From a virus, in the IMG/VR virus record IMGVR_UViG_3300017950_002312, positions 1-31,350 of that record: 31,350 bases of DNA; one strand, written 5' to 3'. Below, piece by piece: positions 3,559 to 19,178 of this stretch (position 1 is the stretch's first letter; every line of letters begins with the position of its first letter). Made by a program: the position numbers and the translations under genes. The notes beneath the pieces are model-generated. The model made no database searches. It saw nothing but the letters and a program-made list of their open reading frames with translations, and was not told the DNA's origin.

Positions 3559-3780
3559 ATGGAAAAGAAAAAAACATTTAAAGTCCTAGCTACTTTTTCT
3601 CAAGAAGCTAGTTTATTACTAGATACAGAAAATGTACAGGATTTACTAGATTCTGATGATTTAACACAAGGAGTACATTGGGATGTTAAAGAATTTGAAA
3701 CTAAAGCTGAAGCTATTGCATACATAGATGGTATCAATGATGCAAATGGTTGGGCAGATCCTAATGCAGTTCTATTATGA
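3559..3780 (+). CDS. Small acidic protein preceding the VWA/MoxR pair
   Basis: The 73-aa product (MEKKKTFKVLATFSQEA...) is acidic with an alternating strand/helix pattern: a strand KTFKVLATF, an acidic helix with LLDSDD, then VKEFETKAEAIAYIDGIND. I recognise no named family. It is the first gene after a strong terminator, and its stop overlaps the VWA gene start as ATGA, so it should be translationally coupled to that gene. Such a neighbour could be an accessory or regulatory subunit of the VWA/MoxR module, but that is inference from position only. Confidence 0.65.
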   Translation: MEKKKTFKVLATFSQEASLLLDTENVQDLLDSDDLTQGVHWDVKEFETKAEAIAYIDGINDANGWADPNAVLL

Positions 3781-4973
3781 GACACGAAGAAGAATTATCA
3801 ATAGTCATTAAGACTATTATGTTAGAACAGCCCTTTTATGGGTTGTTTTTGTTAAATGTAAACAAAGAGTTTAATAAGAGAGTTCCTACAGCAGCAGTAA
3901 CTATTGAGGGAATAAACTATAAACTAATTGTTAATCCAGATTTCTGGGATAGTTTGTCTAATAACCATAAGCAAGGTTTGATTCTACATGAAGCCAAGCA
4001 TATTGTTTTTGGACACTTATTAATGAGAGATAGCTTTTCAAACCATAAGCTTGCTAACGTAGCTATGGATTGCGAGTTAAATCAATATATTAATAGCGAG
4101 CTATTACCGGATGGAGCTATACTACCTGAAACTCTAGAAGAGGAACTAGACATTATTCTAAGTGAAAAAGCAGGTACTCATTATTATTATAATGCTATTA
4201 ATAAACAACTACAAGAACAACAAGGTCAGGGTAATCCTGATAAAGCTTGTAATGGTGGTATGGGTGGAGATGGTTTACCAGACACACTAGATGACCATAG
4301 TACTTGGGATGAGATGGCAGATAATATGTCTGAAGCAGAAAGAAAGCTTGTAGAGAAACAAGCAGAACACTTAATTAAACAAGCTGCTGAAGAAACTTTG
4401 AAATCTAGAGGTCATTTACCTGGAGGTGTTCAAGAGATTTATAACCGTATTACACAAGTAACAGAAGCTAAATTTAATTGGAAAGCTTACTTACGTCAAT
4501 TTGTAAACGGTAGTATTAGATCTACTATGAAGTCTTCACGTAAAAAGATCAATAGACGATTGGAGAAACAAGATGTACCTGGTAAGAAATATCTTAGAAA
4601 GGTAAACATGCTTGTTGCAATAGATACTTCAGGTTCTGTAAGTTCTAACGAATTAAAAGAATTTATGAATGAGATACATCACATACATAAAAACGGAGCT
4701 GAAGTAACAATTATACAGTGTGATACAAGAATCAACTCTATTGATAAGTTTAATCCTAAAATGAATATAGAGATTAAAGGTAGAGGTGGAACTGAGTTTG
4801 ACCCTGTTATAGACTACTACAATAAGAATAGGAGCCAATTTACTTGCCTTGTTTATTTTACTGACGGAGAATGTCATTGTGAAATAAAACCACAAGGTAA
4901 ATTATTATGGGTACTATCTTCTGTTTCTAAAATTAACGAGTATCTTCCTGGTCCTCAAATTAAACTAAACTAA
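3777..4973 (+). CDS. HEXXH metallopeptidase-like plus VWA domain protein (DUF2201-like)
   Basis: The 398-aa protein has two recognisable parts. The N-terminal part has PFYGLFLLNV and then HEAKHIVFGH (H71, H75, with H80), the zinc-peptidase-like motif of the DUF2201 N-terminal family. The C-terminal VWA-like part has the MIDAS residues DTSGS (283-287), T339 in RGGTEFDP, and FTDGE (361-365). A Gln/Gly-rich linker (about 143-168) and a charged helix join them. Such proteins pair with MoxR-type AAA+ ATPases to remodel or load metal into targets, and the ATPase gene follows directly. The start overlaps the upstream stop as ATGA. An in-frame ATG at 3819 (MLEQPFYG) is possible, but both starts lie before a terminator-like hairpin at 3826. 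Confidence 0.88.
   Translation: MRHEEELSIVIKTIMLEQPFYGLFLLNVNKEFNKRVPTAAVTIEGINYKLIVNPDFWDSLSNNHKQGLILHEAKHIVFGHLLMRDSFSNHKLANVAMDCELNQYINSELLPDGAILPETLEEELDIILSEKAGTHYYYNAINKQLQEQQGQGNPDKACNGGMGGDGLPDTLDDHSTWDEMADNMSEAERKLVEKQAEHLIKQAAEETLKSRGHLPGGVQEIYNRITQVTEAKFNWKAYLRQFVNGSIRSTMKSSRKKINRRLEKQDVPGKKYLRKVNMLVAIDTSGSVSSNELKEFMNEIHHIHKNGAEVTIIQCDTRINSIDKFNPKMNIEIKGRGGTEFDPVIDYYNKNRSQFTCLVYFTDGECHCEIKPQGKLLWVLSSVSKINEYLPGPQIKLN
3826..3850 (+). terminator. Terminator-like hairpin inside the VWA gene
   Basis: Bases 3826-3833 (AACAGCCC) pair with 3840-3847 (GGGTTGTT) through eight pairs including one G-U, with a 6-nt loop, followed by T's to 3850. It has the shape of an intrinsic terminator but lies about 50 bases inside the coding region. 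The residues it encodes (PFYGLFLLN) belong to the conserved N-terminus of the family, so it cannot be upstream of the true start. It may act as a translation-sensitive attenuator. Confidence 0.5.
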
Positions 4974-5006
4974 ACAATTAACAACTAACAATTAAAAACT
5001 AAATCA

Positions 5007-6194
5007 ATGGCACAAGTAAATTTAAACACAGCAGAATTAAAAACATTTGTAAAGCAAATCATCGAAAATAATAGATACATTCAAGAAAAAGGAATGACAC
5101 CTGTAGCAGTTAATGTAGAGGGTGATCACGGTCTAGGTAAAACTACTGTAATTAGTCAAATTGCACAGGAAGAGGGACTAGACTTTGTAAAGATTAACGT
5201 AGCTCAGTTAGACGAGTTATCAGACTTAGTGGGTTTTCCATTAAAAGAATACCAAATCAGTAAAAATGTAGATGGAGTAGCTAAGACTAAGTGGGTTACA
5301 GAAATGGAAGCTGAAAGAGCTATTAAAGATCCTTCTGTTAGACTTACAGGTCTTAAGAGAACTTCTTATGCACCACCTGAGTGGATATCTGGTAAAGCTA
5401 ATGGCGGTATTCTTCTTCTTGACGATTATACTCGTGGTAGCCAAATTATGATGCAAGCTTGTATGGATTTAATCTATACTCAAGAGTATTATTCTTGGAA
5501 ACTTCCTAAAGATTGGCACATTATCTTAACTACTAATCCTGATAACGGTGACTATCAAGTTACTTCTATGGATGCTGCACAAAAGACTCGTTTTATTTCT
5601 TGTCAATTAAAGTTTGACGTAGACTGCTGGGCTAAGTGGGCAGAAGAAGTAGGTATGGATAACCGTTGTATTAACTTTGTTTTGAAACATCCGGAACTTA
5701 TAGGAGATAAAACTAATCCTCGTTCTATTACTACATTCTTTAACTCTATATCTGGGTTTGAGAACTTTGCAGACCAGTTACCTATTGTACAAATGATTGG
5801 CGAAGGTAGTATTGGACCTGAAGCAACTACTCTATTTACTACGTTTATTCATAATAAGCTAGATCAATTACCTCATCCTTCTGAAATACTAGACACTAAG
5901 ATTACTTCTGATACTTCTGTATCTAGATTAATTGATGTTATTGGTGAGGGTAATAATTATCGTGCAGACATTGCAAGCATATTAACTACTCGTATTGTAA
6001 ACTACAGTGTTAATTTCTCTAAAACTAATAAGATAGATGATAAATTTATCGAAAAGATTGAGAAAATCACTACATCCTCTGCTCTTACTATAGATTTAAA
6101 ATACATGTTTATTAGAAATCTAATGAAAGATGCAAAGCGTAAATTCCAACAATTATTAATGAATGAAGAAATTTTAGATTTAACAACTAAATAA
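5007..6194 (+). CDS. MoxR-type AAA+ ATPase
   Basis: The 395-aa protein has Walker A GDHGLGKTT (residues 39-47), Walker B ILLLDDYTRG (135-144) with the usual MoxR feature of acting on a small helical insert, sensor 1 in TTNPDNGDYQ (175-184), and a candidate arginine finger in KTRF. MoxR ATPases form hexamers that work with VWA proteins to mature, fold or metallate partner complexes. The adjacent VWA/HEXXH gene is the expected partner. The leader AACAATTAAAAACTAAATCA before the ATG closely resembles those of the Sak4-like and SSB-like genes, which suggests strong expression. Assignment is firm; the client protein in infection is unknown. Confidence 0.9.
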   Translation: MAQVNLNTAELKTFVKQIIENNRYIQEKGMTPVAVNVEGDHGLGKTTVISQIAQEEGLDFVKINVAQLDELSDLVGFPLKEYQISKNVDGVAKTKWVTEMEAERAIKDPSVRLTGLKRTSYAPPEWISGKANGGILLLDDYTRGSQIMMQACMDLIYTQEYYSWKLPKDWHIILTTNPDNGDYQVTSMDAAQKTRFISCQLKFDVDCWAKWAEEVGMDNRCINFVLKHPELIGDKTNPRSITTFFNSISGFENFADQLPIVQMIGEGSIGPEATTLFTTFIHNKLDQLPHPSEILDTKITSDTSVSRLIDVIGEGNNYRADIASILTTRIVNYSVNFSKTNKIDDKFIEKIEKITTSSALTIDLKYMFIRNLMKDAKRKFQQLLMNEEILDLTTK

Positions 6195-6200
6195 TAAATT

Positions 6201-7430
6201 ATGTTTACTAAAAAAATTAAAATAATAACTATAAATCATGATATTTTACCTAATCTGGTAAATCAGTGGAGTCTTAATGACGAAGATCGTTTGATAGTAC
6301 AATCTAGATTTCGTGAATTATTTAAAATACAGGAACAAACTTTTGTATATACGGAAGAAAAATTTAAAAACTTACCGATTTCAAATCGTAAATTAGTAGA
6401 CGGGGATAAGCTTTATGTTTATCCCACTACTAACTTGCCTAGGCATAAGATTAGAAATACTAGCAAACTAAATTTACAATTTAAAAGAAGTATTGAATCA
6501 GCTAATGTTTTAGTTATTGACTACAAAGCTTTTGAAAAAACTTTTAGTTATGGCTGGATATCTAGGCATGTTTTTCAAAGTAGTAGAAACGGTTTAAATA
6601 CTATATTTAATGCATTGTTTCAAGAATCTATAGAGGGTATATTCTCTGAAGAGGAAATTTCTGAAATGTTAGTTGATAATCAGCACATCTATTTTGATAA
6701 TATGGTTCATAAAGTATTTACTTCAGACCCTACATTTAATAGTAATTACTCACATCGTTTCACAGATTATTATAATAACGATTATAGCATTGTTCATGCT
6801 GATATATTAGCAAAGTCGTCTACTACTCAAATAGATAAGCTTAAGAGTGTTGAAATTCTAGAGTATGCATTAGCAAACAATTATGATATTATGTTACCTA
6901 ATAATGTCTTAAATGATGTATTGCCTAATACTATACTTACAGAGAAAACTTTTCAAAGGTTTGATCAAATGCTAAAAAGCGATGGAGACTCTATTAACCT
7001 TGCTCTTGAGATGCTTTGTAACTGTGATATAGAACGTTCTGCATTTTATCTTATCAGACTAATACAGGATAATATGAATAGTATTAAATGGTCTAAAACT
7101 TATAATAATGTAAATTTTAAAGCATTTAGAACAAGTGTAAATACTATATTTTCAGGACATGGACGGGATTATATCTTTGAACATAGTTTACGTTATTCAG
7201 AAATCTTTACTCTTTTAGGTAGTGCTAAACTTTTAACTAAAGAACATCTTGATTACTACAAAGAAGATGTTAAGAGAGACTTTAGCTATGTTCCAAGTAA
7301 TAAATTCTTTAAAGTAACAAAGATTGAAGCTACTGATGAACTAGTTAAGTTGTTAAATGAAAGTGCTGAATATCTTAAAAAACTAGGAGGAGAATTGGAA
7401 CCTGAGTTAACAGAAGAAGAAACTGTATGA
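6201..7430 (+). CDS. Unknown protein linked to the MoxR/VWA module
   Basis: This 409-aa protein is not recognised. It starts six bases after the MoxR stop and ends with an ATGA overlap to the next gene. The first 100 residues look like mixed strand and helix with YVYPTTNLPRHK. The middle is helical and rich in Asn, Phe and Tyr, and the C-terminus is a charged tail (GELEPELTEEETV). No signal peptide or membrane segment is seen. Its operon position and size suggest a client, scaffold or third component of the AAA+/VWA system. Equally, it could be an unrelated replication-associated protein. Confidence 0.75.
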   Translation: MFTKKIKIITINHDILPNLVNQWSLNDEDRLIVQSRFRELFKIQEQTFVYTEEKFKNLPISNRKLVDGDKLYVYPTTNLPRHKIRNTSKLNLQFKRSIESANVLVIDYKAFEKTFSYGWISRHVFQSSRNGLNTIFNALFQESIEGIFSEEEISEMLVDNQHIYFDNMVHKVFTSDPTFNSNYSHRFTDYYNNDYSIVHADILAKSSTTQIDKLKSVEILEYALANNYDIMLPNNVLNDVLPNTILTEKTFQRFDQMLKSDGDSINLALEMLCNCDIERSAFYLIRLIQDNMNSIKWSKTYNNVNFKAFRTSVNTIFSGHGRDYIFEHSLRYSEIFTLLGSAKLLTKEHLDYYKEDVKRDFSYVPSNKFFKVTKIEATDELVKLLNESAEYLKKLGGELEPELTEEETV

Positions 7431-7675
7431 CGTACTTAGATTTTAATTGTTATGGAGAAAGTCTGGATTCAACCCCAGACTTTTTTCATATGAAAAGACA
7501 ATATGAAGAGGATATGTTAATTAATTCAGTAGAAAATTTGGAAGAAAATTTGAATTTATTTTTGCCAGTAAATGAAAAAATTGGTAATTTTGATGCTACT
7601 AGAATTGTGGAAAACCTAGATATTGATTTAATTAAAGAAAAAAAGACAAATGACAGAGCAACCAAACCAACCTAG
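7427..7675 (+). CDS. Small protein with ambiguous start around an internal terminator
   Basis: From the ATGA-overlapping start the product is 82 aa. A perfect terminator hairpin occupies codons about 11-20, and an in-frame ATG (7490, MKRQYEEDM) follows it directly. If that is the real start the protein is 61 aa, and the hairpin simply lies between two genes. The body is acidic and Leu/Asn-rich, with no recognised motif. The gene overlaps the following one by 26 bases. I keep the longer form because ATGA coupling is common here, but the choice is open. Function unknown. Confidence 0.55.
   Translation: MTYLDFNCYGESLDSTPDFFHMKRQYEEDMLINSVENLEENLNLFLPVNEKIGNFDATRIVENLDIDLIKEKKTNDRATKPT
7458..7486 (+). 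terminator. Strong intrinsic terminator at the start of a coupled gene
   Basis: Bases 7458-7466 (AAAGTCTGG) pair perfectly with 7475-7483 (CCAGACTTT) around an 8-nt loop. The T tract runs from 7481 to 7486, and the stem can extend outward with A-U and G-U pairs. It lies 28 bases after the stop of the 409-aa gene and four bases before an in-frame ATG, so it could end the MoxR/VWA transcript or act as an attenuator before the replication genes. Confidence 0.75.
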
Positions 7676-10564: not shown

Positions 10565-11425
10565 ATGAATTTAAACGAACTAGAAGTAAAAGGTCCTGGA
10601 TCAGGAGCATCAGAAGGACAAACAGGTAAGAAATTGTACACAGGTTTATTACCAATCCAAATTAAGTTAGTTAATCCAACCGAAAAACAACTTGCAGAGT
10701 TTTATGGCGTTGAAGAGAGTAAAATTAAAGAAGTAAGTTACATAAGAGAAAGAGATGGTGAGTCTACAACTCGTCTTGATTTCTACTATGAGAATCATTC
10801 ATCTTCAAAGCATAACATTAAGGGTAAATTTTCTATTTTTATTAGAAAAGAGACTAGACAATCTAAAGCAGGTAAGAAACAATACATAGATGATTTTACT
10901 AGAACTTCTTGGGCAATGAACTTATCTGAGTTAAGTCAAAATCAAGAACAAGTAAAAGATTTTATGCGTTTAGATATGAGCACTGCAAGAGAAGCTTTCC
11001 CAGGTGAAGAGACTATTTATAATTTACTTAAAGCTTATGGTAATATTATTCCTCGTAATAAGCCTCTAAAGTTAACCCACACAGATAATTTATTTGTAGC
11101 TGATGGATCAGAACTTCAGAAATTTTTTGACTTCTTTAATAATAAAGACGGAGGAATGCTAGCTATGTTAGGAGTAAAAGACTATAAATACCAAGAAGTA
11201 TTTACTGGACACTTTATGCCTTTACACAGTAAGCTTAGTGACTACGATAAAAGACAAATTGAAGGTGATTATGGCTTTAAAGCATACTTCGCTGGATATG
11301 TCTTGAGTGAATATGTTCCGGAAGCTGCACCAGAAGTAGATGAGGAAGAGTCATTATTTTCTTCAGGATCTAATTCTTTGAAATCTAATGTAGATGTAGA
11401 GGACGAAAATCCATTCTTACTTTAA
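10565..11425 (+). CDS. Probable phage single-stranded DNA-binding protein
   Basis: The 286-aa protein has a soluble, strand-rich body with many aromatic and basic residues. It ends in an acidic, disordered tail (EVDEEESLFSSGSNS... finishing VEDENPFLL). An acidic tail tipped by Pro-Phe is the interaction tip of SSB proteins, which recruits polymerase, primase and helicase. Position after a Sak4-like ATPase and before the primase supports this. An intrinsic terminator follows at 11433. No OB-fold can be proved by eye, so the fold assignment is inference. The A-rich leader suggests high expression, as expected for SSB. Confidence 0.65.
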   Translation: MNLNELEVKGPGSGASEGQTGKKLYTGLLPIQIKLVNPTEKQLAEFYGVEESKIKEVSYIRERDGESTTRLDFYYENHSSSKHNIKGKFSIFIRKETRQSKAGKKQYIDDFTRTSWAMNLSELSQNQEQVKDFMRLDMSTAREAFPGEETIYNLLKAYGNIIPRNKPLKLTHTDNLFVADGSELQKFFDFFNNKDGGMLAMLGVKDYKYQEVFTGHFMPLHSKLSDYDKRQIEGDYGFKAYFAGYVLSEYVPEAAPEVDEEESLFSSGSNSLKSNVDVEDENPFLL

Positions 11426-17872: not shown

Positions 17873-18217
17873 ATGGAAAACAACAAAAAAGAGTCTCAAG
17901 CTTTGAGATACAACGAAGGAAAACTAAAATGGTCTCTAGTAGATTTTAAATCTCTAGAGTCTATGGTAAGAGTATTAGAAATGGGAGCTAAAAAATATGC
18001 TCCCTATAATTGGAAAAAAGGAATGCCTGTTAGTGAAGTAAGTGAGAGTCTTTTAAGACATATGTTTGCTTTTCTAGAAGGTGAAGACACAGATCCAGAA
18101 AGTGGTATAGATCACTTAGGACATGTTTTATGTAATGCAATGTTTCTTTCGTATATTATGAAAGAGAGACAACAGTTTGACGATAGATATAAATCAAAAG
18201 AAAATGATAACAGATAA
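17873..18217 (+). CDS. dATP/dGTP diphosphohydrolase-like protein (DUF5664/MazG-like)
   Basis: The 114-aa protein has the features of the MazG-like family whose N-terminal domain is named dATP/dGTP diphosphohydrolase: LRYNEGKLKWSLVDF, MGAKKYAPYNWKKGM (about 37-51), SLLRHMFAFLEGEDTDPESG (about 60-79) and HLGHVLCNAMFL. The acidic GEDTDPE and the His residues fit a metal-dependent nucleotide pyrophosphatase that turns a dNTP into dNMP plus pyrophosphate. It might adjust the dNTP pool or recycle host nucleotides. It overlaps the nuclease gene by 14 bases. A 2-aminoadenine role is considered in the findings but not claimed. Confidence 0.75.
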   Translation: MENNKKESQALRYNEGKLKWSLVDFKSLESMVRVLEMGAKKYAPYNWKKGMPVSEVSESLLRHMFAFLEGEDTDPESGIDHLGHVLCNAMFLSYIMKERQQFDDRYKSKENDNR

Positions 18218-19178
18218 CGAATATTTAGGCAACGTAGGAATAAGTCAGAGTAGACTTAAGAAAATCCTAATTCATCCAAACTACTATATTAATAATTCAT
18301 ATAGTGACTTTGATGAGCCCGCAGAAGTTACCTTAATAGGTGATGGTGTAGATTTAATTCTAACACAGGGAGAAGATGTATTTAACGAACAGATAGCAAT
18401 TGCTACTGTAGAACGTCCAGGTTCTATGATGGGAGAGTATGTATGGTCTTTATACATTAATAAAGATAGAGAAGATGCAGAGTTAATCGCCTATCAGAAA
18501 TCAGGATACAAGATAGCACCTGAAAAAGTACAAGCTAAGTTTGAGAAAGAAGGTATTGAGTATTATAATCAATTGATATCTTCTGAAGACAAAAAGCTTA
18601 TTACTCCTAAACAGTATGAGACTATCTTAGCTATGGTAGAAAGTTTTAAAACACACCCTTTTACTACAGAATTCTTTACTGACAGCAGGTATAAGAGATT
18701 GTATCAAGTTCCTTTGTATGGTACTTGGGGTAGTTTTAAAATGAAAGGTCTTCTAGATCTTTTAGTATATGATAAGAAAGATAATGTTGTTTATCCTATT
18801 GATATAAAAACTACCAGTAAATCTCTTTTAACTTTTGAAGATACTATCTTTCACCATAGATATGACTTCCAAGCTGCTTTCTATTTGGAGTTAATTCACC
18901 AAAACATTGGCATAATTCAAGAAGAATTTAAAGCTAATATCCTACCACATGTTACAAATTTTTCTTTTATTTGTGATAACCAAACTTATCCAGGTAGTCC
19001 TTTAATATTTAGAATGTCAGAAGACGCCATAAATGTAGGACGTAATGGTGGGGAGAGAAAAGGCAGATACTACGAAGGATTTAGCCAAGCATTTAAACGT
19101 CTTGAATTCCACAATCAATTAGATAAGTGGGCCTATAGAATGGAAGACTATAAAAATAAAGGAGTTAAATTAGTCTAA
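18204..19178 (+). CDS. PD-(D/E)XK exonuclease (RecE/Cas4/DUF3799-like)
   Basis: The 324-aa protein starts with SQSRLKKILIHPNYY, a beginning often seen in RecE/DUF3799-type nucleases. The catalytic core is MKGLLDLLVYDKKD (Asp near 185) and VYPIDIKTTS (D200, K202), followed by the helix with FQAAFYLELI. That is the D-xn-D-x-K signature of PD-(D/E)XK exonucleases. It would resect DNA ends to feed the annealing or RecA-like ATPase in recombination. I start at ATG 18204 (MITDNEYLGN); a TTG 27 bases upstream is the alternative. It overlaps the upstream gene by 14 bases. Confidence 0.8.
   Translation: MITDNEYLGNVGISQSRLKKILIHPNYYINNSYSDFDEPAEVTLIGDGVDLILTQGEDVFNEQIAIATVERPGSMMGEYVWSLYINKDREDAELIAYQKSGYKIAPEKVQAKFEKEGIEYYNQLISSEDKKLITPKQYETILAMVESFKTHPFTTEFFTDSRYKRLYQVPLYGTWGSFKMKGLLDLLVYDKKDNVVYPIDIKTTSKSLLTFEDTIFHHRYDFQAAFYLELIHQNIGIIQEEFKANILPHVTNFSFICDNQTYPGSPLIFRMSEDAINVGRNGGERKGRYYEGFSQAFKRLEFHNQLDKWAYRMEDYKNKGVKLV

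Follow-up and report, generated by a model that had tools for sequence, protein, structure and literature searches.

A phage MoxR/VWA gene pair with a strictly linked third protein in environmental crAss-like phages

We know of pairs of a MoxR-type AAA+ ATPase and a vWA-domain protein in many phages, and of no proven function for them in tailed phages. The locus described here raises the question of what such a pair acts upon and whether a dedicated partner gene can point to it. The window, by which we mean the whole stretch of DNA that was analyzed, is a virus record of 31,350 bases (IMGVR_UViG_3300017950_002312). Four genes follow each other closely on its plus strand, encoding a 73-aa acidic protein (3559..3780), a 398-aa protein with HEXXH metallopeptidase-like and VWA (MIDAS) domains (3777..4973), a 395-aa MoxR-type AAA+ ATPase (5007..6194) and a 409-aa protein (6201..7430), the last being characterized through an AlphaFold2 model, a family alignment and co-occurrence. 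The coordinates of the initial annotation were confirmed exactly: the first two open reading frames share a 4-base ATGA overlap, and gaps of 33 and 6 bases separate VWA from MoxR and MoxR from the 409-aa gene, respectively. An ATGA overlap also joins the 409-aa gene to the next ORF (7427-7675). As other phage contigs carry homologues of all four genes at corresponding positions, the arrangement is not due to chance.

The 398-aa protein matches the Pfam families DUF2201_N (PF13203, E 2e-17) and DUF2201 (PF09967, E 3e-19), both over the cut-off, and the PHROG family phrog_1314 (7e-70). The sequence HEAKHIVFGH (3987..4016, plus strand) contains the HExxH motif and a further histidine, and the residues H71, E72, H75, and H80 are invariant in 76 relatives. 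The MIDAS motif of the VWA domain (DxSxS, T, D) is represented by DTSGS (4623..4637, plus strand), of which D283, S285, and S287 are invariant, as are T339 and D363 in the 76 distinct relatives. Both Pfam domains, the HEXXH motif and the MIDAS residues that define the DUF2201 metallopeptidase-VWA proteins are thus present. The family (phrog_1314) carries the label 'HNH endonuclease' in PHROGs and RefSeq (NC_031039, NC_021782), which conflicts with the assignment to DUF2201_N and DUF2201; the note in the AR9 record itself gives these domains.

The 395-aa protein matches phrog_1297 ('ATPase', 1.6e-38) and scores 16.4 bits against the Pfam AAA_3 profile, under the curated cut-off of 27. We therefore call it MoxR-type on the basis of the phrog_1297 match, its motifs and its linkage to the VWA gene rather than on Pfam AAA_3. 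Among 50 relatives, the Walker A and LLLDD Walker B motifs, the TTNPD sensor 1 and the TRF arginine finger are invariant or nearly so. Within the Walker A motif (GDHGLGKT, 5121..5144, plus strand), G39, G42, G44, K45, and T46 are invariant in these relatives, and D139 and D140 of the Walker B motif (5412..5426, plus strand) are found in 50/50; the second acidic residue is thus Asp in all of them, instead of the Glu of the usual Asp-Glu.

The sequence comparisons identify the window and its relatives as environmental crAss-like phages. The PolA, DnaB-like helicase, primase, exonuclease, a helicase and the uracil-DNA glycosylase homologue of the window match proteins of crAss001, and searches of the named phages with its PolA and Sak4 retrieve crAss-like phages. 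No terminase, portal or RNA polymerase gene was found in the window; homologues like those of crAss001 are present in three long relatives. The features by which Crassvirales are recognized (crAss-type replication genes together with terminase, portal and giant RNA polymerase homologues) were therefore found in the window's replication proteins and these three relatives combined. The module is absent from the first 100 kb of the 102.7-kb crAss001 genome; the crAss001 metalloprotease gp77 is no relative of the VWA protein. The best PolA match is Leptolyngbya phage Lbo-JY46 (PP438436; PolA 51%), which has other replication genes in common with the window, an observation that also concerns the loci L112 and L113. 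A search of the first 100 kb of Lbo-JY46 (125 kb) did not reveal the module.

To follow the 409-aa gene, loci were collected by IMG/VR scans from three seeds (the VWA protein, the MoxR protein and the 409-aa protein), and a locus was taken as informative when its contig continued past MoxR. A member of the 409-aa family follows MoxR in all 58 informative VWA-seeded loci of crAss-like environmental phages and in 19/19 MoxR-seeded loci. Conversely, MoxR lies directly upstream in 76 of the 77 loci seeded by the 409-aa family alone, and in the single exception an extra family member of 159 aa is inserted between MoxR and the 409-aa gene; all of these loci are uncultured and phylogenetically related contigs, so that the counts do not represent independent events. 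In three VWA-seeded loci without the family (L004, L011, L042) the contig ends too early to be informative, and two of them hold only a fragment of MoxR. In the scan with the 409-aa protein, 307 relatives were confirmed. The loci come from diverse phages, with 19 VWA clusters at 70% identity among the 52 distinct loci in which all four genes are complete. The 409-aa protein is thus a strict partner of the MoxR/VWA pair. The initial annotation had assigned it to the pair and had named its absence from syntenic loci as the observation that would speak against this; no such absence was encountered among the informative loci. In several lineages (loci L067, L091, L092, L097, L102, L162, and L170) the third component is present in tandem copies, and in L162 and L170 the first of the copies has a BRCT match.

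The fate of the 73-aa gene, which had been put forward as a second general companion, is different. An HMM of the family finds it in 21 loci of the first set, all within the clade of the window, and in most of these it lies about 270 bp from the VWA gene without overlap. It has no Pfam family and a weak match to phrog_3627 (E 0.003), and we regard it as a gene of this clade that occupies the position before VWA. Elsewhere, this position is often filled by a gene for a protein of about 135 aa (130-150 aa), whose sequence is related to that of the C-terminal half of the 409-aa protein (lowest E value 1e-13, in a reciprocal search). The ~135-aa gene was found in 102 loci and the 73-aa family in 22, and no locus has both.

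The AlphaFold2 model of the 409-aa protein (pLDDT 83.7, pTM 0.77) is alpha/beta towards the N-terminus and all-helical towards the C-terminus. In order, the protein consists of a BRCT-like N-terminal domain (approximately residues 68-140; 6402..6620, plus strand), a linker, an all-helical C-terminal domain (approximately residues 246-365; 6936..7295, plus strand), which is the region homologous to the stand-alone ~135-aa protein of most relatives, and an acidic C-terminus. Neither Pfam nor PHROG has a family for it, and tblastn against 50,697 named phage records gave no match, either with the protein itself or with a central family member as query. A Foldseek search of the full model against the PDB gave no significant match; against BFVD, three uncharacterized phage proteins were retrieved, one of which is labeled CrAss-like.

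The BRCT-like domain is indicated by weak Pfam matches, a BRCT scan and the topology in a relative, L020. BRCT is the Pfam family that members match most often, albeit weakly (4/44 with an E value of 1 or less, the lowest being 0.003), and since the best score of 18.2 bits stays under the curated cut-off of 21.3, we use the term 'BRCT-like'. The N-terminal domain of L020 modeled alone (pLDDT 90.7, pTM 0.57) is predicted to have the order beta-alpha-beta-beta-alpha-beta-alpha, which is the BRCT topology. BRCT structures recur among the top Foldseek matches, none of them significant (E > 0.4, against a threshold of 0.001), and a profile search places the BRCT domain of PARP1 at E 0.85. The strongest point comes from an unbiased search for BRCT across 2.5 Mb of phage DNA in 36 records, in which all five matches fell within the 409-aa family. 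Together, these consistent but sub-threshold results suggest a BRCT relationship; in outline, the third protein looks like a scaffold of DNA repair. To our knowledge, phage proteins with a BRCT-like domain have not often been described. Our literature search returned no paper that mentions BRCT, MoxR and phage together, and none with both crAss-like phages and a MoxR or VWA domain.

How does this arrangement relate to known systems? The phage-borne pair that the initial annotation had recognized is real, but the pair itself is not new. The N4-like proteins gp24 (AAA+ ATPase) and gp25 belong to the same MoxR and HEXXH-VWA families as those of the window (phrog_1297 and phrog_1314), and this pair is conserved in N4-like viruses (PMC7650795). 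In the six named phages that we examined, MoxR precedes VWA, whereas the order in the window is VWA, MoxR, third gene; members of the 409-aa and ~135-aa families were not detected within approximately 5 kb of the pair in these six. Jumbo phages encode a two-gene chaperone pair with the same domains, MoxR and vWA-metallopeptidase, for which a role in virion assembly was proposed; the passage that describes it mentions no third component (Iyer et al. 2021, PMC7824862). The new part is therefore the 409-aa third protein. In its composition of MoxR, vWA and a dedicated third component in a fixed neighborhood, the locus has what characterizes the bacterial vWA-MoxR ternary systems, in which the third protein is of the VMAP, iSTAND, FtsH or beta-propeller type (Kaur et al. 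2020, PMC7159879). Searches of Pfam, PHROG, NCBIfam and PADLOC gave no VMAP(-C), iSTAND, FtsH or propeller match for the third protein, so that the system of the window may be said to work like these four types without being a member of any of them. In addition, the VWA protein of the window has an N-terminal HEXXH domain and lacks a C-terminal effector, unlike the bacterial ternary systems. RavA-ViaA, CoxD-CoxE, Mg-chelatase and Rea1/midasin also combine a MoxR-clade AAA+ motor with a MIDAS domain (PMC7159879), but have other clients and no BRCT-like third subunit.

The genomic context points to DNA metabolism. The gene following the 409-aa gene matches the PD-(D/E)XK exonuclease of crAss001 in 101/128 loci, often with overlapping frames, and in many of the remaining loci a RusA-like gene is found at this position. 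Directly upstream of VWA lies a primase homologue in several loci and, close by, a RusA-like gene in others. In the three long relatives, the module is located within the replication block and is encoded on the other strand from terminase and portal. In the window, the exonuclease (18177..19178, plus strand), identified as a PD-(D/E)XK recombination exonuclease by a phrog_412 exonuclease VIII match (3.9e-28), an exonuclease HMM and synteny, is 11 kb away from the 409-aa gene, compared to directly after it in most relatives. These neighbors favor a function in replication or recombination over one in virion assembly, with the reservation that operon neighborhood in a phage gives no more than a weak hint of the client.

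The proposed mode of action of MoxR-vWA pairs is binding of a peptide at the MIDAS, followed by its ATP-driven release in remodeled form (PMC7159879). By analogy, the third protein could be an adaptor or a client, and its tail a candidate ligand. With a confidence only slightly better than even, we propose that the genes specify a ternary MoxR-vWA machine, particular to phages, for the remodeling of replication-recombination complexes; the complex, its client, the peptide capture and any proteolysis are what we infer from the genes, active sites, linkage, domain relations and context described above. The MoxR AAA+ ring and its VWA/metallopeptidase partner would act on, or through, the third protein with its BRCT-like and helical domains, and in most relatives the fourth gene, before VWA, would supply a free copy of the helical domain. 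As an adaptor, the third protein would bring the motor to replication-recombination complexes, in line with the primase, PD-(D/E)XK exonuclease, Sak4 recombinase and RusA-like resolvase neighbors. The MIDAS of the VWA domain would capture an acidic peptide, ATP hydrolysis would then release or rebuild the complex, and the HEXXH domain may trim a client. The 409-aa protein had been named as the obvious candidate for the client; its linkage to the pair was borne out, and it may be adaptor, client or both. In either role, the strictly linked protein would name the probable adaptor or client of a phage MoxR-vWA pair.

Other functions have to be weighed against this proposal. A chaperone that assembles or processes capsid or tail proteins, a role suggested for jumbo phages and reported for the Acidianus two-tailed virus, with the third protein as scaffold or assembly factor, seems rather improbable to us. 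For group 2.2 jumbo phages, it was proposed for the same pair, in which the VWA protein carries a metallopeptidase domain at its N-terminus (Iyer et al. 2021, PMC7824862), yet in the crAss-like phages the module has exonuclease, primase and resolvase genes as neighbors, sits in the replication-recombination block opposite to terminase and portal in the three long relatives, and contains a BRCT-like domain that would be atypical of an assembly factor. In this lineage, the third protein would thus point to replication-recombination over virion assembly. Insertion of a metal cofactor, whereby the pair would activate a metalloenzyme as in CobS/CobT or CoxD/CoxE, is very improbable: bacterial MoxR-vWA pairs do perform this function (PMC7159879) and there is a weak match to phrog_249 ('porphyrin biosynthesis', 6e-6), but the phage pair families phrog_1297/1314 match far more strongly and no linked metalloenzyme gene was recognized.

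A role in counter-defense or host takeover is unlikely as well, if somewhat less so than virion assembly. Here, a fast-evolving third protein would recognize a variable host target, such as a defense or repair complex, that MoxR-vWA would dismantle. Sequence divergence fits this picture, as the 409-aa family has a mean pairwise identity of 27%, against 65% for MoxR and 60% for VWA, and evolves much faster than its partners by this measure; the third gene is tandemly duplicated in some lineages, and in bacteria the three-component vWA-MoxR systems serve in biological conflict (PMC7159879). However, a scaffold with disordered linkers is also expected to diverge fast, PADLOC gives one weak match only, and the module has a constant place in the replication block, unlike a variable accessory gene.

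Returning to the proposed remodeling machine, a candidate for the MIDAS ligand is found at the C-terminus of the third protein. A strongly acidic tail ending in [IFL][DES]WF is present in 44 of 109 distinct complete relatives of the 409-aa protein, and the WF ending occurs in 0/2,019 other ORFs; the copy of the window ends in ...EETV, without the WF motif. In many relatives, this tail is plausibly the captured peptide. Mimicry of an SSB tail was also considered, but could not be told apart from the idea of a MIDAS ligand. Many loci further encode a DUF932-like protein (L009:17675-18847 and homologues) with an acidic tail ending in ...PDFF, PDLF or SDFF. Both tails are present in 21 loci, neither in 17, and 3 are mixed, a pairing that may be explicable by clade membership alone. 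A more specific version of the proposal would make this a new class of ternary MoxR-vWA machine, with a BRCT-helical scaffold that binds to complexes on phage DNA, a C-terminal D-aromatic-F tail as MIDAS ligand and the ...PDFF of the DUF932-like protein as the mark of a second client; it is speculative and we consider it unlikely; if true, the similar tail would amount to a general 'remodel me' signal.

Another acidic tail was seen in the window at 10565-11425, a homologue of the hypothetical protein gp81 of crAss001 that ends in VEDENPFLL and is possibly a ssDNA-binding protein. Finally, the MoxR genes of several relatives are interrupted. Rfam group I introns lie directly before the MoxR 3' exon in L016, L077, L098, and L102, and the 5' exon of L098, L030, and L077 stops in the Walker B region (LLLDDYTRAD), while in L084, L027, and L014 the break is near codon 74. 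The gaps in these MoxR genes hold ORFs of approximately 250 aa with a GIY-YIG-like start (GIYKI...YIGSS).
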